Source: Lineus longissimus (taxonomy: Eukaryota; Nemertea; Pilidiophora; Heteronemertea; Lineidae). From it: a stretch of 64,000 nt of DNA. The translations under genes and the position numbers were made by a program. Positions 4,848-62,492 of the stretch are shown here, in pieces. A model generated the notes under the pieces. The model did no database searches. It worked only from the letters and a program-made list of their open reading frames with translations, and was not told where the DNA came from. The first letter of the stretch is position 1; each line of letters begins with the position of its first letter. Location of the stretch: the NCBI RefSeq assembly GCF_910592395.1, contig NC_088316.1:744001-808000 (forward strand), read 5' to 3'.

Positions 4848-27291
<22,444 letters not shown>

Positions 27292-34128: not shown

Positions 34129-35388
34129 ACTTGTTTCAAGACATGACTGATTACCAGACGACGAGTCAATATGCACATTACCCGTGTGGTAGTGGCCAGT
34201 GTGGGCCTGAATTAAAAACAGAGACCCAAATAGCCTACCGGTAGGCGGAAGGCTACAGTAGGGTGGTCGCTAGCTGTCATGTAAGAAAAAGTGGCATTGA
34301 AGGAGCCGTATTTTCTGCACCAATAATGTGGACGGGCACAGTAGATTACAAGAGTCAAGATTCACAGAAATTCTACAGATCCCTCTAGGCACTAGATTCT
34401 CCCAATACAGCATCAGTATGGCAATATAGGGCCTACATACATGTAAATGTACCCATTCCATGGCCTGTACTGTGTGTGTACAAAATGTACACAGAGAATA
34501 AACCACCATCAACAAAACGCCATAAACACATCATTTCAACAATGATTGCAAATATTTAGGTATCAGAATGTTCTAGAATGACCAATGATTTTCACTGATC
34601 ACAATCGAATGATCAAAAGTCGAAGAAATCGGCCAAAAACTTACTTTCTTTTCAACAAATGTTGTCTCATGGAGGCAGACATCTTGGATTTTTCAAGGGG
34701 GCATCTCAGAATCCTCAAGTACGCCAATTTTCTAAACTCACGATATTTGAGTTTATAGACATTTCTATGACCTATTCATAATGGTTCACTTTCCAAAGTC
34801 TAAATATATTCAAACCTTATCATTATAAGGTTGAAATATCTTATGAGAAATGAGTATTTGGCTTTTGAAAAATATGACGAAATGTTTTATCAGTCCTAAT
34901 TTTCTACAAAACCAGCGGTGGTACTTAATTTAGCTGAGCACCAACAACCAGGAAATGAAAATTTTGGATGTGAATCTCAAAACCTTTATATTCTGACCAA
35001 TTATTGGCGAATACTGTAGTTTAAACCGTTGAATAGTCTGATAAACCAGTACAGCGTAAGTTGGTGTCATGAAGATAGGAACTATTGTGCTGAGGCATGT
35101 CAAATAGTCTCTCTGATCAAGTATTACTGACGGGCGGAGCCAACATGGAGCATGGGGGGGGGGGGGCAATGGTGTGTGTGTGCAGATGTCAAGAATCATC
35201 AGGGAGTTTCAGCTTGTTGCAGTAGGGCTGATGTTCCGGTATCGATTTTAACAGACATCCCTACCTACATGCCCGGCCTGAAACAAGAAGAATAAAAAAT
35301 AATGTTTGACTCAAACACTGTGCGAATTATTTACTTAAAGTTCTCTTCTTTTTCAGTTATCTTTGGTGTGAAAACTCACGAGAAAAAC

Positions 35389-36855
35389 ATGGCAGAAGAA
35401 CAACCTTCGGCGATCCCTGAAACTCAAACTGAAAACTGCAACACAGACCAGGAGGATGGCATGAACCTGATGAACCTGACTGACCTACCCGACCTGGTGT
35501 TAGTCAAGATCATGTCCTACCTAGGTTTCAACGATCTTTACAGTGCTGCTTTAACCTGTCAGAGAATGAATGAGATTATGAACCATCCAGCTGCTTGGTC
35601 CAAGATCAGGATGGACATTCTTTCAGATACTGATTTGCATAATGAGAACTTCAAGACGTCAAGATATCTTGCGATGACTGAGCGATATGGGGCATATTTC
35701 CAAGACCTGGAATTCTACTACACTGGATACTGTCAACCAATAAACCTGGACATCAAAGACTTGATTGACAAACTGAATTCGAAATGCCGACTGAAAAGTT
35801 TAGTCATATCGGTGTATTTTGTTGAGACTAAGCAATTCAATCATGCAAATTTCAATGTGTACAGATTGAAGGAGCATTATGATGCAGTTTGTTCCTTGGT
35901 TTCAACGTGCGAGCGTTTGAAATCCTTCAGTTTACGCAGCTGGCCTGCTCGTAAAGCGGAACCTGATAAAAATGAGATTTTAGAAGCGCTTTGCGCAAAT
36001 GAGCATAATAAGAAGCTGAGGAAGCTGCACATGTTTTGGCCCGATAGAACGGAGAAGAATTGGGTGGGTCTTCGGACAAATCAGACCAAGAAGCATGCAC
36101 TTGTGGTTGTTGAGCACTTCACTGCCCTGACTCACTTGAGTCTCCCGTCCAATATGATTAGCCAGGATCTTCTAGATCAGCTGGCGAAAGGCAATAGAGC
36201 TCGGCTTGAGAACATGAGAGTTCTGGTCGTCTTCTCAAACAGTGATGATAATCTTCAGATCCCTAGACTATCTTGGGGACCGTTGCATAGAGCTTGCCCC
36301 GAGTTAGAAGTTGAAGTTGTCTTCAACAGCCGGGTCCCAGAGTTTAACATGGCGCAGATGTTAAAGTCTGAAATGCCTGTGAGTGTTTTGTATTTCATGA
36401 AGTATGCTCGACTTGGTGCTGATGATATCAATGCCATGGCTGTCAAATATCAAAAGACCCTGAAGAAGTTTATAAGCTACTCTGATGATACTCTTGATGC
36501 TGATGTCGCTCTTCTTAGCCTTGTTGTGAACTGTACTCTTCTGCACACATTAATCTTTTACGGTCCGTTGAATTTTAAAACAGTGATGGAGTTGGCCGAG
36601 TCCAAGGGTAAGAAATGGTATCAGTTTGTCGTTAAGAATGATACAATAGATCTGAAGGCTAAGAAGCTCGATCCAGATCTAGTCCTAGGTTATGATGATG
36701 CGACTGGGCAGTATTACCAAGCTGATATGGTGCAGTGGGGGGACACGGATAAATCTCTGAAAGAAAAGGAAGAACGATTCAAAGTGATGGTTGAGTCTGT
36801 CACAGAGTCTATCGGTCGTTCTTGGAAACCATTTTCTGAGCCCAAATCCACTTGA
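35389..36855 (+). CDS. FBXO39-like: F-box protein, FBXO39-like
   Basis: A single coding exon encodes 488 residues. An acceptor (TTCTCTTCTTTTTCAG, ending at 35356) lies 32 bases before the ATG, so the in-frame upstream ATG at 35302 is probably intronic and I start at 35389. Residues 31-73 form an F-box (LPDLVLVKIMSYLGF...ALTCQRMNEIM...W), the module that binds Skp1 in SCF ubiquitin ligases. The rest resembles the leucine-rich C-terminal region of FBXO39/FBXO33, for example the LENMRVLVVF...ELEVEVVF stretch. Substrate recognition is inferred from the family; no substrate is known to me. The C-terminus is charged. A poly(A) signal follows at 37261. It converges with the zinc-finger gene on the other strand. 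Confidence 0.85.
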   Translation: MAEEQPSAIPETQTENCNTDQEDGMNLMNLTDLPDLVLVKIMSYLGFNDLYSAALTCQRMNEIMNHPAAWSKIRMDILSDTDLHNENFKTSRYLAMTERYGAYFQDLEFYYTGYCQPINLDIKDLIDKLNSKCRLKSLVISVYFVETKQFNHANFNVYRLKEHYDAVCSLVSTCERLKSFSLRSWPARKAEPDKNEILEALCANEHNKKLRKLHMFWPDRTEKNWVGLRTNQTKKHALVVVEHFTALTHLSLPSNMISQDLLDQLAKGNRARLENMRVLVVFSNSDDNLQIPRLSWGPLHRACPELEVEVVFNSRVPEFNMAQMLKSEMPVSVLYFMKYARLGADDINAMAVKYQKTLKKFISYSDDTLDADVALLSLVVNCTLLHTLIFYGPLNFKTVMELAESKGKKWYQFVVKNDTIDLKAKKLDPDLVLGYDDATGQYYQADMVQWGDTDKSLKEKEERFKVMVESVTESIGRSWKPFSEPKST

Positions 36856-43107: not shown

Positions 43108-43673
43108 GGGATGGGAGACATGGCTGCTCCACCACGAGACTGTCACAACCAGATCAGACCAGAGGAGACATGGCTGCTCCAGGGTGCGGGACTGTCACAA
43201 CCAGACCAATGTTGGGAGACATGGCTGCTCCAGGGTGTGGGACTGTCACAACCAGACCAATGTTGGGAGACATGGCTGCTCCATGCAGGTGTGAGACTGT
43301 CAAAACCAGACCAATGTTGGGAGACATGGCTGCTCCAGGGTGTGAGACTGTCACAACCAGACCAATGTTGGGAGACGTCGCTGCTCCACCGTGAGACTGT
43401 CACAACCAGACCAATGTTGGAAGACATGGCTGCTCCAGGGTGTGGGACTGTCACAACCAGACCAATGTTGGGAGACATGGCTGCTCCATGCAGGTGTGAG
43501 ACTGTCAAAACCAGACCAATGTTGGGAGACATGGCTGCTCCAGGGTGTGAGACTGTCACAACCAGACCAATGTTGGGAGACGTCGCTGCTCCACCGTGAG
43601 ACTGTCACAACCAGACCAATGTTGGGAGACGTCGCTGCACCATACACGGTGTGAGACTGTGACAACCAGACCA
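43108..43673. repeat. 51-bp minisatellite with higher-order repeat, 11 copies
   Basis: Units built on ACTGTCACAACCAGACCAAT, GTTGGGAGACATGGCTGCTC and a variable joint repeat every 51-54 bases. Four joint types (CAGGGTGTGG, CATGCAGGTGTGA, CAGGGTGTGA, CACCGTGA) occur in the same order twice, making a 205-bp higher-order unit in tandem (about 43186-43390 and 43391-43595). Both strands have short open frames that follow from the period. Confidence 0.93.
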
Positions 43674-43701
43674 AAGCCCCGGCCTAGATTAACCATGGTT
43701 G

Positions 43702-54105: not shown

Positions 54106-57100
54106 TTATTCCATATCTTCTGACTTCTTATCACGTGGTACAACCAGTAAAAGCTTTTGAAGGAACCTATTGGTGGCATCTGCAAAAAAAACATCAAATA
54201 ATTTCATAACCTTCCGCTACTCTCATCCAAGATGGCCGACACACTGGCAGCAGGTGGTTTTTCTTGCACTTGCTTCGCTAACACTTGCCAAAGACAGAAG
54301 ATATTTTGATAATCATATTGAAATTACACAAATCCTCGCGCGCTATGCCCCCCCCTTACCTATTTTCCTCATTAGGAACTTTGGTTTGTTCTTCCAGCAG
54401 ACACATATCCAGTAGACCGGAAGTGACCCAATCATGATGAGAAGGCATATACCACTGTCAACAGGCTTCTCATAAACCGTCAATGAGAGGAGAATGAGGC
54501 TCCATATGAACAGGGCAATGGGGAGGACGATGGGCATCTGCAAGTAGCGAGTCAAATTTGTAGACAGATTGTCAACTGAGTACCCTGAGTTTTGAAAATG
54601 CATGGAGTGGAATGTGATGTCTAAAGACATTTATATAAATATTCTACATCCATTAAGGACTTAGCAGACCATCAAAGTAATAATAATATGCTTCAATGAC
54701 CAAAAAAACGGAACAAAATTATTTATTCAGATTCAACTTGCCAGCTGGTGCTGATTACAGCCTTGTGCATTTGACAAGTCCATGAGGTCAATGGCATTCG
54801 TAACTGGAGGTAGTAACCCTACATGTAAGGCACAGAACAATCTGAAGTAGTCTGTAGGCCTCTTCTTAACCAGTTATAACGTATGTCTTATCCTAATGAT
54901 AAACACACTTGACAACTGTTTATTTTTGTCTTCATCCATTTTTCTTTTCAGGAATCGAGGTTATTTGCGAAGTACACCAAAATAAACTGCACTCGAATAT
55001 TTGACGGGTTACACTCCGTAATGAAAGATTGTTTTCACTTATTACCTTTATTGGTCTTGGTATATCTGGTAGTTTATATCGCATATACAACATAGAGGCT
55101 AGGACCATGGCAAAGATTGTGGCGAATCCGAATCCCATCATCTCCAGAAGGTAGAATATATCACCAGAGGTTAACATGACTAGAGTTACCATACACTGCA
55201 AGAGAAGGTAGAATATATCACCAGAGGTTAACATGACTAGAGTTACCATACACTGCAAGAGAAGGTAGAATATATCACCAGAGGTGAACATGACTAGAGT
55301 TACCATACACTGCAAGAGAAGGTAGAATATATCACCAGAGGTTAACATGACTAGAGTTACCATACACTGCAAGAGAAGGTAGAATATATCACCAGAGGTT
55401 GACATGACTAGAGTTATCATACACTGCAAGAGAAGGTAGAATATATCACCAGAGGTTAACAAGACTAGAGTTACCATACACTGCAAGAGAAGGTAGAATA
55501 TATCACCAGAGGTGAACATGACTAGAGTTACCATACACTGCAAGAGAAGGTAGAATATATCACCAGAGGTTGACATGACTAGAGTTACCATACACTGCAA
55601 GAGAAGGTAGAATATATCACCAGAGGTGAACATGACTAGAGTTATCATACACTGCAAGAGAAGGTAGAATATATCACCAGAGGTTAACATGACTAGAGTT
55701 ACCATACACTGCAAGAGAAGGTAGAATATATCACCAGAGGTTGACATGACTAGAGTTACCATACACTGCAAGAGAAGGTAGAATATATCACCAGAGGTGA
55801 ACATGACTAGAGTTACCATACACTGCAAGAGAAGGTAGAATATATCACCAGAGGTTAACATGACTAGAGTTACCATACACTGCAAGAGAAGGTAGAATAT
55901 ATCACCAGAGGTGAACATGACTAGAGTTACCATACACTGCAAGAGAAGGTAGAATATATCACCAGAGGTTAACATGACTAGAGTTACCATACACTGCAAG
56001 AGAAGGTAGAATATATCACCAGAGGTTAACATGACTAGAGTTACCATACACTGCAAGAGAAGATAGAATATATCACCAGAGGTTAACATGACTAGAGTTA
56101 CCATACACTGCAAGAGAAGGTAGAATATATCACCAGAGGTTAACATGACTAGAGTTACCATACACTGCAAGAGAAGGTAGAATATATCACCAGAGGTTAA
56201 CATGACTAGAGTTACCATACACTGCAAGAGAAGGTAGAATATATCACCAGAGGTTAACATGACTAGAGTTACCATACACTGCAAGAGAAGGTAGAATATA
56301 TCACCAGAGGTTAACATGACTAGAGTTACCATACACTGCAAGAGAAGGTAGAATATATCACCAGAGGTTAACATGACTAGAGTTATCATACACTGCAAGA
56401 GAAGATAGAATATATCACCAGAGGTTAACATGACTAGAGTTACCATACACTGCAAGAGAAGGTAGAATATATCACCAGAGGTTAACATGACAAGAGTTAC
56501 CATACACTGCAAGAGAAGGTAGAATATATCACCAGAGGTTAACATGACTAGAGTTACCATACACTGCAAGAGAAGATAGAATATATCACCAGAGGTTAAC
56601 ATGACTAGAGTTACCATACACTGCAAGAGAAGATAGAATATATCACCAGAGGTTAACATGACTAGAGTTACCATACACTGCAAGAGAAGATAGAATATAT
56701 CACCAGAGGTTAACATGACTAGAGTTACCATACACTGCAAGAGAAGGTAGAATATATCACCAGAGGTTAACATGACTAGAGTTACCATACACTGCAAGAG
56801 AAGGTAGAATATACACCAGAGGTTAACATGACTAGAGTTACCATACACTGCAAGAGAAGATAGAATATATCACCAGAGGTTAACATGACTAGAGTTACCA
56901 TACACTGCAAGAGAAGGTAGAATATATCACCAGAGGTTAACATGACTAGAGTTATCATACACTGCAAGAGAAGGTAGAATATATCACCAGAGGTTAACAT
57001 GACTAGAGTTACCATACACTGCAAGAGAAGGTAGAATATATCACCAGAGGTTAACATGACAAGAGTTACCATACACTGCAAGAGAAGGTAGAATATATCA

Positions 57101-60100
57101 CCAGAGGTTAACATGACAAGAGTTACCATACACTGCAAGAGAAGGTAGAATATATCACCAGAGGTTGACATGACTAGAGTTACCATACACTGCAAGAGAA
57201 GGTAGAATATATCACCAGAGGTTAACATGACAAGAGTTACCATACACTGCAAGAGAAGGTAGAATATATCACCAGAGGTTGACATGACTAGAGTTACCAT
57301 ACACTGCAAGAGAAGGTAGAATATATCACCAGAGTGAGCTAACTCAAAGTTCTCTTCCGCTGACATGAGTGGTATGGAAGATACTCATCGAGACGTTGAC
57401 GGAAATAGCCGATGGTGATAGTTCACAATTCCATTTGAAATATGCTCACACGAGCATCAACAAGCTACATGTATTGCATTCTCTTTGCCTTTGTGGCTGT
57501 TATCTGACTTGGGAATGATCCAGTTGGTCATCCGCCTAGGAATCTGAAATAAGTTTTCTTACCATGATAAGCAAGGAGGGCGCTGGGGTGAGTCGTTTCA
57601 TATGGATCATGGAGAAGAACTGAGGAAGTTGTCCTTCCTCGCCTCCGATGAAAAATACCCTGGAGAGAGAAATGTAAGCATAGTTTGAAATCGTAAGTGA
57701 GAAGTGGTTTTATCTTTGAGATTTCATTTGCAACGTGCTCAGGATTCCAAGATGAACCATACACAAAATTTGACTAAACATCGAATTCAAATCGCTCATC
57801 ATCCAACGTTAATGTACATGGTTAATGTACATGGTAATACCGCATGGTGTGTGACGATAATGAGGAGTGGACATAACAAGGTTTACTCCTCCTACCTTGA
57901 TATTGCTAGTGTGCCACCGTTCATGGCGCCGAACACCGAGGCAGCTACGAACAGAGGCATGATGAATGCTGCGGGGCCAAGCGTCCGTTCGGCAAACGTC
58001 TGCAAGAGAAAGGAAATCCATCACTCAGAAGGAATCGTTTGAGAATTGAGAAAACAACCAACAACCAAATATGCACACGAAATATCAGTGTACAGTGGAA
58101 CCCCGGTAACACGACCACTCTGGAATAAGACATTTTTTCATCCTTCAGAGTTGAATTTTTTTCATAAGTTCAAATTTCTGAAAATGTTTCAAAGCCAAAA
58201 TACTTTTGGGGTTGATGATGTTTCTTCATTTTGTGCAGAAAAAAAAAATTTGGACTTAACATTTTTTTCATCATTGAGACAGTTCAAAATTTTTAGGTCT
58301 TGTGGGCTGTAGGGCTTGACTGAAAGGCTTTTATGACCCTTGTCTGGTTTCTCGAATCCTCGTGTCTGAAAGTGATTCCGCACAAACTTACAACTGCCAC
58401 TGCGGGAGATTCCAGCATCTCGTCCGTACTGAGGACAGTCATGTAGGCGACATTCGCCAGCAGGTAGACGCCTGTCACCACCAGTATGGAGATCACAATA
58501 GCCCGGGGGAGATTTCTGAAAAATACATAGTTCTTGATCATTTACAGGTTACTGGTTCCTGAGGCCAAAATCAGCATGAAAAGCACGTTTTTCAAAGACG
58601 TTTCGAAAGCCCACACCCTCTCTATAAACGTCATCCGTCGTGTTGGTTGAACTGGCTGGAGGATATCACCAACAATTCCACTGACCGAATTAAATCTTCC
58701 CAAGCATCTAAGATTTTTATGCACTTCATCAAGATAGAATCCTTACTTATTTGGGTCCTTGAGTTCTTCTGTCAGAAAATTTAGATAATTCCTGGAAAAG
58801 TGAAACATGAAAATGATCATACTCGTAATTGTATCAACAGTATGTTGAAAGTAAACATATACAATAGAGAGGTTGAGTTACCGCCTCGAATGTGGGACAA
58901 TGCCTAAGGAATGGGCTTCAAATGCATATGATTTCGATCCGTAAGCGCAAACGTACCCGTAGCTAAAGACTCCGCACGCGATCGGTAATTGAACATCATA
59001 TTTCAACTATCTTTTTTCGAATTAACAATTGCGAATTATCTGCAGCTGTTGACAAGCTTGATAAACGTACAAAATGATTGATAACAAGAAATTTTTCAAA
59101 AAACACGATAAAATAGTTACGGCTGGGTTCGAACCCATGACCATCCAATCCATAGTGCAACCGTCTAACCGCCGAGGCCATCAAGGCTTTAATGATAGAA
59201 CGGGATTTTCGTTGTCCAGCTCGTCGCCATGTTGAAAAAGCGCCATGATTGTGACGAGGTCACGCTGGCGGAAGGGTAATTCGGTAGAAATAGTTCCAAG
59301 CTAATCGTATAATTCAATATTGCGACAGATTTTTCTTGATATATCGTATTTATATAGCTCGGTGATATAATAGATAATGTTCGTAGTTGATTTTAATGTT
59401 TGAATGGCTTTCTCAAAAATGTTTTTAGAAGCGAGGTCAACAGGGTCAAAAGAAATAGTCTTTGGCGCCAATGATGTCAGCAATGGCGAATTTGAGTTAA
59501 GATTCGAGTCGATTCTTTTGGAGTCGGAAGTGTGCATGCACAAGGCAATCATATTTATATAGCTCCGTGCACGTGATTTGAAGGGACAATTTGGGTGTGG
59601 GATTTAGGTGACCAGAAAGATGATATGTAATTTGAATCTGTCCGCCTGCTCATCACAGTAGTTAAAAACTAAATGCTCATCACTAATAATGAATTTAGCG
59701 CCGACTTGTCAAACCATTCTCTGGAGTGCTCGAACACCTGGAATCAGTGTGTACTTCAATGGCAGCAAAACATCACTTTGGTTTCGGTGACTCTGAATAT
59801 CGGACAAGATCTACTTTAAAAACACTTTTTTGGTGACCGTTGATGGGGCATTTGTCCCCTGCCCCCCCCCCTCTCCCTCTAGCTACGAGCCTGTGTAAGA
59901 CACACTTACCATCCTCCAAAGGCCCATGTTCCCGAATAGAACGCCAAAGCTAATGACCCGGCACTGTAGTCACTGCCTTCGAACGGATGATGTAGGTTCT
60001 CTAGTCGGCCTACAGCAAATAGGAGGGAAACAAGAATGTCAAGGGATTAACAGCTGTGTTATTGTGATTGTTACTGAAAACCCATCCTGAGGAAATCATG

Positions 60101-61459
60101 GGATAGTGTTCGCTTCCCCGGCCCTACACACAAACTGTTTACCTCGGGATGCTGAAAACCACATCGGTTCTTATCGACAGAAAATGGACAGACCGATATT
60201 GACTAAATGTCTTGGAGGATGAAGGAATAAGTCATGATAAGACTTTATACGGGTATAAACACTTATCAGAGGCATTATTCCGTGGCACAAGAAGGTCTGA
60301 ATCACGTGCATCCAATTCAGGAATCGTGTACAACTTACCCCTTCCCATCTCGACGAACCCAAGGACGATGATGATGCCCAGCGCCAGCAACTTGCACGCC
60401 GTGAACACCACTTGGACTTTCGCCGCCCATTTCACGTTGTAACAGTTGATGGCAGTTAGCAGGGCTACAACGAGACAAGCAGTTGAAGGAAAATTAGTTT
60501 TAAATCTATACAGTCATCTTGAATATCTCCAAACAGCAACCTGTGCCACTAGGGGCGCTGCAGCTGATATTTGTGTTTTCAGAGGCAGCAAATTACTGTT
60601 GAGCAACCATCGCAATCTCCAACAACAACGGTCGACGCCAGAACTGTGACACTGGCCATAGAGAGCGGAAACCCTGTTTAAACGTAAAGTTGAAATTATA
60701 GCGACTCCATTTTCCCTATCTAAGAAACACTAGAACAATTTTGGCGGGAAAACTTAATCATACCTTTTGTAACCGGATTTTCAACTTCGCTAACGCGACC
60801 ACCCCAGTAACGCGACCATTAAACCTCGGTCCCATGATCGAGTGGTCGTGTTACCGGGTTCACTGTACCCGATTTTAATGCAAAAGTGTCCATTTTATAG
60901 TATCTTAGGGAAAGGAATGGGCTGATAGTTGATTAGGGCAGGATTTCCTTCTGCTCTCTGAGCCTAATAAGTAAAACATTCCGTACCAGAATGGTCAGCA
61001 AACCAACAAGACTTATCGTTACTTACACACTGTAAGCACCGTTATGAGTTTAGCGGCTTCTTGTGGTGGCTCACAGGTCGGGAAGACGGGCCGCAAGATG
61101 TATGTCGCCAAGACAAGCCCGGATACAGTGAATCCGGGGGCCAACATCAAGAAAAGATTGATCATAAGGTAAATGAAAGCTGGGATGTCACCGAAAGCTT
61201 TCTTAATGTACATGAACTCCCCGCCAGATACACTGAATGTTGTCCCCAACTCCGCCCAGCAAAGCGCGCCCCCCGTCGAGATGATCCCCACCAAGAACCA
61301 CACAATAAGACTCATCCCCGGACTCCGCGCGTGCAGCAGGATCCCAACCGGGGACACGAAGATCCCCGAGCCTATCATCCCGCCGACGATTATCATTATG
61401 CCGTGGAGAAGCGTAAGTTGACGCTTTAACTCCACTTTCCCGGCGCTCCCCAACGTCAT
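54106..61459 (-). CDS. SLC7 (LAT-type) amino-acid transporter light chain, ten exons
   Basis: Exons are 61459-61027, 60464-60339, 60009-59910, 58791-58747, 58515-58392, 57999-57896, 57659-57563, 55195-55046, 54537-54360 and 54179-54106. Phases are consistent throughout and give 476 residues. Twelve hydrophobic segments are expected, as in APC-superfamily transporters. TM1 carries [12 protein letters not shown] (the GSG substrate motif). After TM3, FPTCEPP holds the Cys that in this family bonds to the 4F2hc/rBAT heavy chain. Further family signatures are [31 protein letters not shown] and the C-terminal [11 protein letters not shown]. It should act at the plasma membrane as an exchanger of neutral or cationic amino acids; the subtype is not resolved. 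Two further first exons lie upstream, and the acceptor of exon 8 is amplified about 38 times. Confidence 0.92.
55046..55195 (-). CDS. SLC7 exon 8 (nearest acceptor)
   Basis: From the last acceptor of the array (CTTGCAG, 55196-55198) the exon reads [20 protein letters not shown] and continues to PDIPRPIK, then donor AAAG|GTAATA. It is 150 nt with phase 0 on both sides. The length and the PRPIK end fit this region of LAT proteins, so this shortest form is the expected one. All upstream array units present the same acceptor and the same first 45 coding bases. Confidence 0.85.
55149..57334. repeat. 57-bp minisatellite made of an exon start and its splice acceptor, about 38 copies
   Basis: In gene sense each unit contains ACCTTCTCTTGCAG, TGTATGGTAACTCTAGTCAT and ACCTCTGGTGATATATTCT. 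The first element is a 3' splice site and the rest is the start of exon 8. The unit equals 19 codons and reads [19 protein letters not shown]. Variation is small (GTTAAC/GTTGAC/GTGAAC; GGTAGA/GATAGA; TTACC/TTATC). One unit near 56814 lacks a base (GAATATACACC), which breaks the otherwise continuous frame. Confidence 0.96.
58091..58120. mobile_element. End fragment of dispersed repeat (MITE family B)
   Basis: TACAGTGGAACCCCGGTAAC then ACGACCACTC. The same sequence, inverted, closes the copy at 60790-60869. It lies in an intron of the transporter. Confidence 0.55.
59108..59190 (-). mobile_element. tRNA-like sequence, probably SINE or tRNA pseudogene
   Basis: The minus strand reads GATGGCCTCGGCGGTTAGAC (A-box-like), then GGTCATGGGTTCGAACCCAG (B box GGTTCGAACCC), followed by T-rich sequence. 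The T stem has a mismatch and I could not close a proper acceptor stem, so I do not call a functional tRNA. Confidence 0.45.
60790..60869. mobile_element. Dispersed repeat (MITE family B), inverted end
   Basis: Begins with TAACGCGACCACCCCAGTAA and CGCGACCATT, and ends with GAGTGGTCGTGTTACCGGGT and TCACTGTACC. The right end is the reverse complement of 58091-58120. It sits in the first intron of the transporter. Confidence 0.6.
61027..61459 (-). CDS. SLC7 first exon, proximal variant (1C)
   Basis: Starts [20 protein letters not shown] and spans TM1 ([16 protein letters not shown]), TM2 (ending [12 protein letters not shown]), [12 protein letters not shown]3 and FPTCEPP. It ends with donor TGT|GTAAGT in phase 1. 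It joins to exon 2 at 60464 as ...[12 protein letters not shown]. It is the closest of three comparable first exons. Confidence 0.88.
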
Positions 61460-62062
61460 ATCCTGTCAGATGCTGTACTTCACAGGGTCACTTCACAAAT
61501 TTGGCACAAAAAAGTAACAAAAATGTCATTTGATGGACAAATACTGAGTAAGACTTCTTGTTATAACTTGCCCTTCACGCAATGCCAGATGTATGCCCCA
61601 ACCCATGCTATGTGCCACACTCAAAAGATAACAAAACGGGTCTAGGTCTTGTCTGCAAACTTTTCATAGGCCTTTTGGCATGATTAGTATATACCAAAGC
61701 ACATGTAGCAATAAAGTGAAAGATAAGTGTGAGTAAACCGTTAGGTAAACTTTATAACAACCAAGATAACCGATAAAAGGTCTTAGAAAAAACTACTAGA
61801 TCATTCTTCTGCCCCCTCATGGTAGTTGTTCAAAAGAAGTCTTGTCCCCGGGGATGACCTGACGTTAATTTAACTTGGCGTTAACTCTAAGGGCTTAACT
61901 GAAGGAGATAACGCCACGTTAGATTAACGCAACAAACGCCAGAGTACCCGGTAAGTGACAAATTTGTTTTGAACAATCAGACCCATGTTTATTTTCCCTG
62001 CTTCCACGTTGTGGTACTCCATTCCTAGCCACCAAGATGCATTTCATGTTCCGGTTACTTAC

Positions 62063-62492
62063 TGACTGCCAGCATTGCTACGAGCTTTACGGCCATTTCC
62101 GGCGGTTCACAGCTTTGGAAAACAGGCCTGAATATGTACGTCGCCAAAACGAGCCCGGAGATTGTCAACCCGGCTCCGAAGTTTAAGACGAGTGTGTTCA
62201 GAAGGTAAATGTAGCCAGGGGTATCACCCAGTCCTTTCTTTATGTACACGAATTCGCCTCCTGATACCTTAAATGTTGTCCCTAGCTCCGCATAGCAAAG
62301 AGCGCCCCCTGTCGAGATGAGACCGAGTAAGAACCACACCACCAGGCTCATGCCTGGGCTCTGGACGTGTCGCAGGATCCCGACCGGGGACACGAATATC
62401 CCTGAGCCTATCATCCCGCCGACGATGATCACTACACCGTGGAGAAGCGTCAGTTGGCGCTTTAACTCGACCCTTTCGACTCCTCGGTTCAT
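62063..62492 (-). CDS. SLC7 first exon, middle variant (1B)
   Basis: Starts [20 protein letters not shown] and covers the same TM1-TM3 module as exon 1C ([41 protein letters not shown]). It has many amino-acid differences, mainly in TM3 (YLLNTLVLNFGAGLTIS against [17 protein letters not shown]). The donor CA|GTAAGT leaves phase 1. No exon 2-10 set of its own lies between it and exon 1C, so it probably splices to the shared exon at 60464. It could also be a relic. Confidence 0.75.

Follow-up and report, generated by a model that had tools for sequence, protein, structure and literature searches.

A 57-bp minisatellite across a 3′ splice site of an SLC7 transporter gene in the bootlace worm Lineus longissimus, with boundary-spanning arrays at other genes of the genome

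Introduction

If the acceptor of an intron is present in 38 tandem copies, which copy is joined to the preceding exon, and what do the others contribute? The question is raised by a minisatellite in the bootlace worm Lineus longissimus (Nemertea), found in a 64,000-nt stretch of its genome (C9:744001-808000, numbered 1–64,000; hereafter, the window), where it lies across the boundary between intron 7 and exon 8 of a minus-strand gene for an SLC7 light-chain (LAT1-like) amino-acid transporter. We consider it very probable that the array arose by tandem duplication across this boundary and is tolerated, with the copy adjacent to the exon being the one that is spliced.

Structure of the array and predicted products

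Tandem Repeats Finder reported a period of 57, 38.4 copies, and 97% matches for the array (coordinates of all features are given in Table 1). Each 57-bp unit consists of the 12 bases at the end of the intron (CTTCTCTTGCAG) and the 45 opening bases of exon 8. By direct count, there are 38 copies of CTTCTCTTGCAG, which belong to 37 units of 57 bp and to one unit (number 9, counted from the intron side) of 56 bp. The 38 units comprise 10 distinct sequence types, and the 37 full-length units differ at six variable columns, every one of which is inside the 45-base exon part. From the intron side, the types follow the order CDCDDAFBGABBBADBFAAAABAAEAECAHCEIJAEAA, which suggests local duplications, as in other minisatellites. 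By our reading in the frame of the gene, the changes among units are four non-synonymous and two synonymous substitutions plus one frameshift; the synonymous share expected without selection is 0.23–0.28, the observed substitutions are near that value, and the variants look neutral. None of the seven events falls within the 12 intron bases; the probability of this by chance is 0.19, however, and selection on the acceptor bases is not claimed. The array was read in one haplotype; according to its published description, the assembly has 391 Mb in 32 scaffolds, and an alternate haplotype was deposited (PMC8593623).

The consequences of choosing one acceptor or another were predicted by translation. 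Any of acceptors 1–9 would lead to a stop codon 1736 nt before the exon 8/9 junction, acceptors 10–37 would yield proteins of 1007 down to 494 residues with the full C-terminus (19 residues added per unit), and acceptor 38 would yield 475 residues. An earlier reading made from the letters of this stretch (hereafter, the sequence-only reading) had described about 38 in-frame copies, an array that both Tandem Repeats Finder and the direct count bear out, and it had the anatomy right: the 12 + 45 bases, the phase, the inserted peptide, the one-base deletion, and about 28 usable extra units. The last number can be refined, because 29 acceptors (10–38) keep the full C-terminus and 28 of these carry inserts. 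Its start at 55046 needs correction, given that this base is the end of exon 8 and the array itself ends at 55146.

The acceptor used in the gene model

Exons were placed from splice signals and homology. All introns are of the GT...AG type, exon 8 taken from the last acceptor joins exons 7 and 9 in frame, and the joined frame closes at 475 amino acids (aa) with exon 1A or 476 aa with exon 1B. The N-terminal exons match Pfam AA_permease_2, and the 475-residue form is similar over residues 4–471 to the light-chain structures of Xc- and LAT1 (PDB 7ccs, E 3.4e-143; 6jmq, E 4e-136). The catalogued protein P0002 (NCBI: Lineus longissimus large neutral amino acids transporter small subunit 1-like isoform X2) is identical to the translation obtained with exon 1A and the last acceptor, and P0003, whose first exon is a third one (1C), joins exons 7 and 8 in the same way. 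The repeated segment was also used as a query (window 54935–56869, residues 30–600) against candidate proteins of about 355–1130 aa: among the top 7,998 candidates by shared words that were scored, no protein carries it repeated, and the four matches (P0002 to P0005) have one copy each.

Paralogs in the same genome tell a consistent story. Residue 343, with which exon 8 begins, is covered by ten genome matches besides those of this gene, and four of the ten (L042–L045) were fetched. In all four, exon 8 is exactly 150 nt and follows a single acceptor without tandem repeats; the preceding intron is 266, 285, and 282 nt long in the three paralogs with both intron ends in view. Because these exon and intron lengths agree, the intron and the 150-nt exon are common to the paralogs, and the array is present in none of the four. 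The first acceptor of the array is 259 nt from the donor, close to the intron lengths of the paralogs. Homology and the catalogued protein together indicate that the last copy is the true acceptor in the gene model, and the protein models and paralogs suggest that it is mainly or solely used in the worm. The sequence-only reading had held that the acceptor next to the true exon gives a normal protein, and this product corresponds to P0002 letter for letter.

Further first exons were noticed at the same gene. There are apparently five tandem alternative first exons (1A–1E) ahead of the shared exons 2–10, from window positions 61027–62492 to chromosome position ~813446. Each offers an ATG in frame with an open stretch of ~150–180 residues, together with a candidate donor in phase 1, and 1A and 1C occur in P0002 and P0003, respectively. 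The layout resembles that of protocadherin-type variable first exons.

Signals within the units and a proposed mechanism

The consensus unit contains a single branch-like site of the yUnAy type, TTAAC; the next AG follows after 32 nt, with no other in between. The copies are identical in the acceptor and almost identical in the tract upstream of it, so the choice among them must come from position; as far as can be judged from these signals, the local sequence gives no reason for preferring the last copy. RNA structure was considered as the selector and rejected, given that the predicted folding of 359 nt of the array is no more stable than that of shuffled sequences (z = +1.2). Because the last copy yields the 150-nt exon length shared with the paralogs, exon definition would be the simplest selector. 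Each unit also contains a donor-like ATG/GTAACT that scores 6.7, compared to 7.4–10.9 for the gene's own donors (on a small in-sample matrix), and a splice from this donor within the units is possible.

We propose that a tandem duplication over the intron 7/exon 8 boundary was followed by growth to 38 units. The acceptor tract (CTTCTCTTGCAG) starts with the pentamer CTTCT, which is present again 45 bases into the exon, where CTTCTGGAG opens the single-copy part; slippage between these two direct repeats would produce a unit of exactly 57 bp. At its intron edge, the array opens with an incomplete unit of 19 exon-derived bases; thus, the original junction is no longer visible. The spliceosome would take mainly or only the last acceptor, with the other 37 copies leaving as intron, and position would select the copy, probably through definition of the 150-nt exon. 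Use of an upstream copy would then be an error that results either in a stop (acceptors 1–9) or in a transporter with extra hydrophobic 19-residue blocks (acceptors 10–37).

Several observations weigh against this proposal. A CTCAC branch-like site is present 31 nt upstream of the first acceptor, with no intervening AG; because this 5′-most acceptor is also transcribed first, a first-come model predicts some upstream use. In five units (types C and J), TCAAC replaces TTAAC, and therefore the copies differ somewhat in their branch regions. The length of the unit is divisible by three and its frame contains no stop, as a role in making isoforms requires; this is weak evidence, however, because the rough estimate of its chance occurrence is 0.27. 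The catalogued proteins may be homology-based predictions, and the cluster of P0003 contains one further member besides P0003. Lastly, one genome match (C6:21141561-21141881) has one open frame through residue 343 with no intron, and four distant matches on C12 (21–24% identity) are also continuous at this residue (the remaining unfetched match over residue 343, on C9, has an internal stop).

Boundary-spanning arrays elsewhere in the genome

Minisatellites are common in this genome. In a sample of 20 stretches of 10 kb, there were 10 distinct arrays (12 rows) with a period of at least 25 and at least three copies, covering 6,223 of 200,000 bases. One of these ten, L024, extends over the end of an Atg3 exon and its donor, with 63 exon-derived bases in the unit (2 mismatches). 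The exon peptide matches ATG3 structures (PDB 9e8p, E 0.00045; 4naw, E 0.0015) with no Pfam match, and downstream of the array, a further exon has matches to ATG3 (E 5.4e-15) and to Pfam PF03987 (E 1.9e-9).

Pattern searches were carried out on the whole genome (391,118,348 bases, 30 contigs), with the reversed pattern as a control. Three GGTAAGT strings gave 463 matches, compared to 394 for the reversed control, and three TTTTGCAG strings gave 34, compared to 77. Enrichment of splice motifs in arrays is therefore not clear for donors and is the reverse for acceptors. At least 14 distinct donor-type arrays were present among the matches listed (of 463); two near-copies of one array and another with an incomplete upstream end were left out, and 11 were fetched (the upstream end of L056 is beyond view). 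Five of the 11 (L047, L048, L050, L052, and L053) follow an open frame of 44–85 residues, which was taken as an exon, and three of these have family matches, namely to DNA-PKcs, an SLC22-like cation transporter, and alpha-2-macroglobulin (A2M; Table 1). The TIGR00898 match of the SLC22-like exon is far below the whole-protein cut-off, the query being only a piece of a protein. L050 and L052 had no family match, L050 also had none in PDB, and the L052 unit has just 6 bases in common with the end of its exon, 2 of them mismatched. L051, which is preceded by 41 open residues, was left out of the exon-edge count. On the acceptor side, one of 12 distinct places read (L030, 7 copies of 45 bp) resembles an exon edge, judged without homology, and a stop interrupts the presumed frame of its unit; L031, L035, and L040 have an open stretch up to a donor-like string and were judged unconvincing.

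The unit of L051 (G000:C1:29026300-29026870) has a composition of its own: in 50 bp, acceptor-like CCCTTGCAG and donor-like GGTAAGT strings stand around an 18-base piece.

The identified arrays have periods of 57 (SLC7), 83, 44, 56, and 42 bp. Two of these five periods are divisible by three, a share similar to the third that chance alone would give. When translation is continued past the true donor, it runs into stops at Atg3, DNA-PKcs, and the SLC22-like gene and stays open in A2M over the three units translated. These periods and stops imply that an isoform function is not the common rule. Boundary-spanning arrays thus recur in this genome, and splice motifs are not clearly overrepresented in arrays. 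From assumed numbers (20,000 genes with 8 introns each, one array in every 20 kb, and 60-bp units), a rough neutral calculation predicts several hundred to a thousand boundary-spanning arrays, so that chance placement and tolerance suffice to explain them.

Alternative explanations

The sequence-only reading had left two options, a tunable source of isoforms or a tolerated expansion. Tolerance gained from the join shared by P0002 and P0003, from the paralogs, and from the absence of a repeat-bearing protein in the protein search, whereas tunable isoforms found no positive support. Under the isoform explanation, acceptors 10–37 would be used in a meaningful way, with regulated insertion of 1–28 hydrophobic 19-residue blocks at a membrane segment; we regard this as very unlikely, even though the 28 upstream gene-side acceptors keep the full C-terminus in steps of 19 residues and the donor-side array of A2M likewise has an in-frame, open unit. 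No protein scored in the same search carries a second copy of the block, the variation among units looks neutral, one unit is missing a base, and three of the five identified arrays have frame-shifting periods (83, 44, and 56). Moreover, the stretch of protein containing the block aligns to the LAT1 and Xc- light-chain structures with no gaps near the block, and insertions there would be expected to disrupt folding. Alternatively, the array could act on dosage: 5′ acceptors would capture transcripts, those spliced to numbers 1–9 would meet a premature stop and decay, and the array length and the position of the deletion would set the output. The long distance from that stop to the next exon junction and the AG-free tract behind the branch-like site, both at the first acceptor and in the consensus unit, fit such a rheostat, but the unit variants are without sign of selection, and we consider it improbable, if less so than regulated isoforms.

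Tandem arrays are generally error-prone in assemblies, and the array or its copy number could be wrong. The Lineus longissimus assembly, as its report describes, is based on PacBio HiFi libraries from DNA sheared to 12–20 kb, with 79-fold long-read coverage (PMC8593623). These fragments are far longer than the 2.2-kb array, so single reads should span it; in addition, the units carry distinguishing variants in a non-simple order, and sister arrays exist at other genes. An artefact is thus the least likely explanation that we considered. The most far-reaching idea is a natural splicing rheostat in which 38 acceptors with the same local sequence compete, the first nine as poison sites and the next 28 lengthening a membrane segment, and in which copy number and the frameshift position set the normal output. 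Boundary arrays at many genes would then form a genome-wide layer of heritable, fast-mutating expression variation. We give this speculation a small chance, slightly better than that of a dosage effect at this gene. Compared to all of these, a tolerated minisatellite with splicing at the exon-adjacent copy is the explanation that we prefer.

Comparison with known boundary repeats

Tandem repeats that span an exon-intron boundary have been named mirages in amphioxus, where they were described from Adh3, BflGb6, and BflGb9 (PMC3087553). Like these, the SLC7 array has intron and exon bases in tandem units, here of minisatellite size, that span a splice site, and several genes of the genome are affected (Atg3, DNA-PKcs, SLC22-like, and A2M besides SLC7). 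As described in that report, amphioxus mirages affect both 3′ and 5′ boundaries, and the Lineus arrays likewise occur at an acceptor (SLC7) and at donors. The differences are in the host, which is a nemertean and not a cephalochordate, in the copy number (38, compared to six and three units in BflGb6 haplotypes), and in the period (57 bp, compared to 150–160 bp in BflGb6, 157 bp in BflGb9, and 10–72 bp in Adh3; PMC3087553). The amphioxus authors state that Adh3 data and their own reverse transcription PCR (RT-PCR) suggest undisturbed regular splicing (PMC3087553); the amphioxus mirages are thus backed by RT-PCR, whereas the Lineus array is known from the genome sequence and catalogued proteins.

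Human cases offer partial parallels. In CBS c.844_845ins68, the more distal of two duplicated sites is reported to be strongly favoured, with normal mRNA as the result (PMC2630376); this is one duplication, in contrast to the array in Lineus. The sites are termed donors in the text of that source, whereas the title of the Romano 2002 study that it cites speaks of 3′ splice site selection. The name of a 31-bp variable-number tandem repeat in the same gene, c.1444_1467+7, places the repeat across an exon end (PMC2630376). Internal tandem repeats at human exon-intron boundaries are described as able to form novel introns in recently duplicated primate-specific genes (PMC2812944). As in Lineus, exon-edge copies may be kept or spliced out, but the human repeats are tied in that report to novel introns in primate-specific genes, unlike the Lineus array. 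A C. elegans report deals with intronic minisatellites and splicing (PMC4039745), a topic other than boundary-spanning units as that source presents it. In the literature searched, by titles and abstract openings and with limited coverage, there was no earlier report of such arrays in nemerteans. New here are the phylum, the copy number, and the recurrence within one genome; the kind of array is already known from amphioxus.

The five identifiable nemertean genes suggest that boundary arrays can arise wherever minisatellites abound and are not peculiar to cephalochordates. With its 38 acceptors that share their local sequence, the SLC7 array is a natural experiment on the choice made by the spliceosome, and existing long reads could show how its length varies. 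In such genomes, length variation at exon edges may be concealed in gene models and expression estimates.

Coordinates and other features of the window

Table 1 Features of the SLC7 gene and its array (window positions) and donor-side arrays at other genes
Feature	Position	Strand	Basis or details
57-bp minisatellite array, 38 acceptors, across intron 7/exon 8 boundary	55146..57334	-	Tandem Repeats Finder, direct count
Partial first unit, 19 exon-derived bases (CTCTGGTGATATATTCTAC), intron-side array edge	57316..57334	-	Sequence, Tandem Repeats Finder
Acceptors 1–9, premature stop predicted if any is used	56848..57315	-	Direct count, translation
Unit 9, 56 bp, one-base deletion, acceptor G at 56848	56804..56859	-	Direct count
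True acceptor in the gene model, CTTCTCTTGCAG, copy 38, G at 55196	55196..55207	-	Splice signals, direct count
Exon 1A, alternative first exon, present in P0002	62063..62492	-	Splice signals, homology, protein match
Exon 1B, alternative first exon	61027..61459	-	Splice signals, homology
Exon 2	60339..60464	-	Splice signals, homology
Exon 3	59910..60009	-	Splice signals, homology
Exon 4	58747..58791	-	Splice signals, homology
Exon 5	58392..58515	-	Splice signals, homology
Exon 6	57896..57999	-	Splice signals, homology
Exon 7, last base 57563, donor starting at 57562	57563..57659	-	Splice signals, homology
Single-copy part of intron 7	57335..57562	-	Sequence
True exon 8 in the gene model, 150 nt, first 45 bases are the last unit copy	55046..55195	-	Splice signals, protein match, paralogs
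Exon 9	54360..54537	-	Splice signals, homology
Exon 10, up to stop codon at 54106	54106..54179	-	Splice signals, homology
L024 donor-side array, Atg3 exon end and donor	G000:C10:7001316-7003672 (L024 1316-3672)	-	28 copies of GATGTAAGT, 83-bp spacing; one of ten sample arrays
L047 donor-side array, DNA-PKcs exon			PF20502, E 1.4e-12; unit with 8 exon-derived bases, 0 mismatches
L048 donor-side array, SLC22-like cation transporter exon			TIGR00898, E 1.7e-16; PF00083, E 3.8e-06; 28 exon-derived bases, 3 mismatches
L053 donor-side array, A2M exon			PF00207, E 9e-23; 26 exon-derived bases, 3 mismatches

The window contains further minisatellites. The largest has 124 copies of a 66-bp unit over 8.2 kb (9979–18166) and is mostly open in three minus-strand frames; others are located at 5825–6296 (75 bp), 19353–20482 (58 bp), and 43112–43674 (51 bp), with no exon edge recognised. 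Open reading frames were listed at the edges of these four arrays and of nine other sample arrays, and Pfam gave no match for one edge peptide each from the 66-, 51-, and 75-bp arrays and from seven sample arrays (the 58-bp array, L026, and L027 excluded). The Pfam matches of ten open reading frames of the window were at most weak or partial and were set aside. An intronless F-box protein frame on the plus strand (35386–36852) is open over 489 residues.

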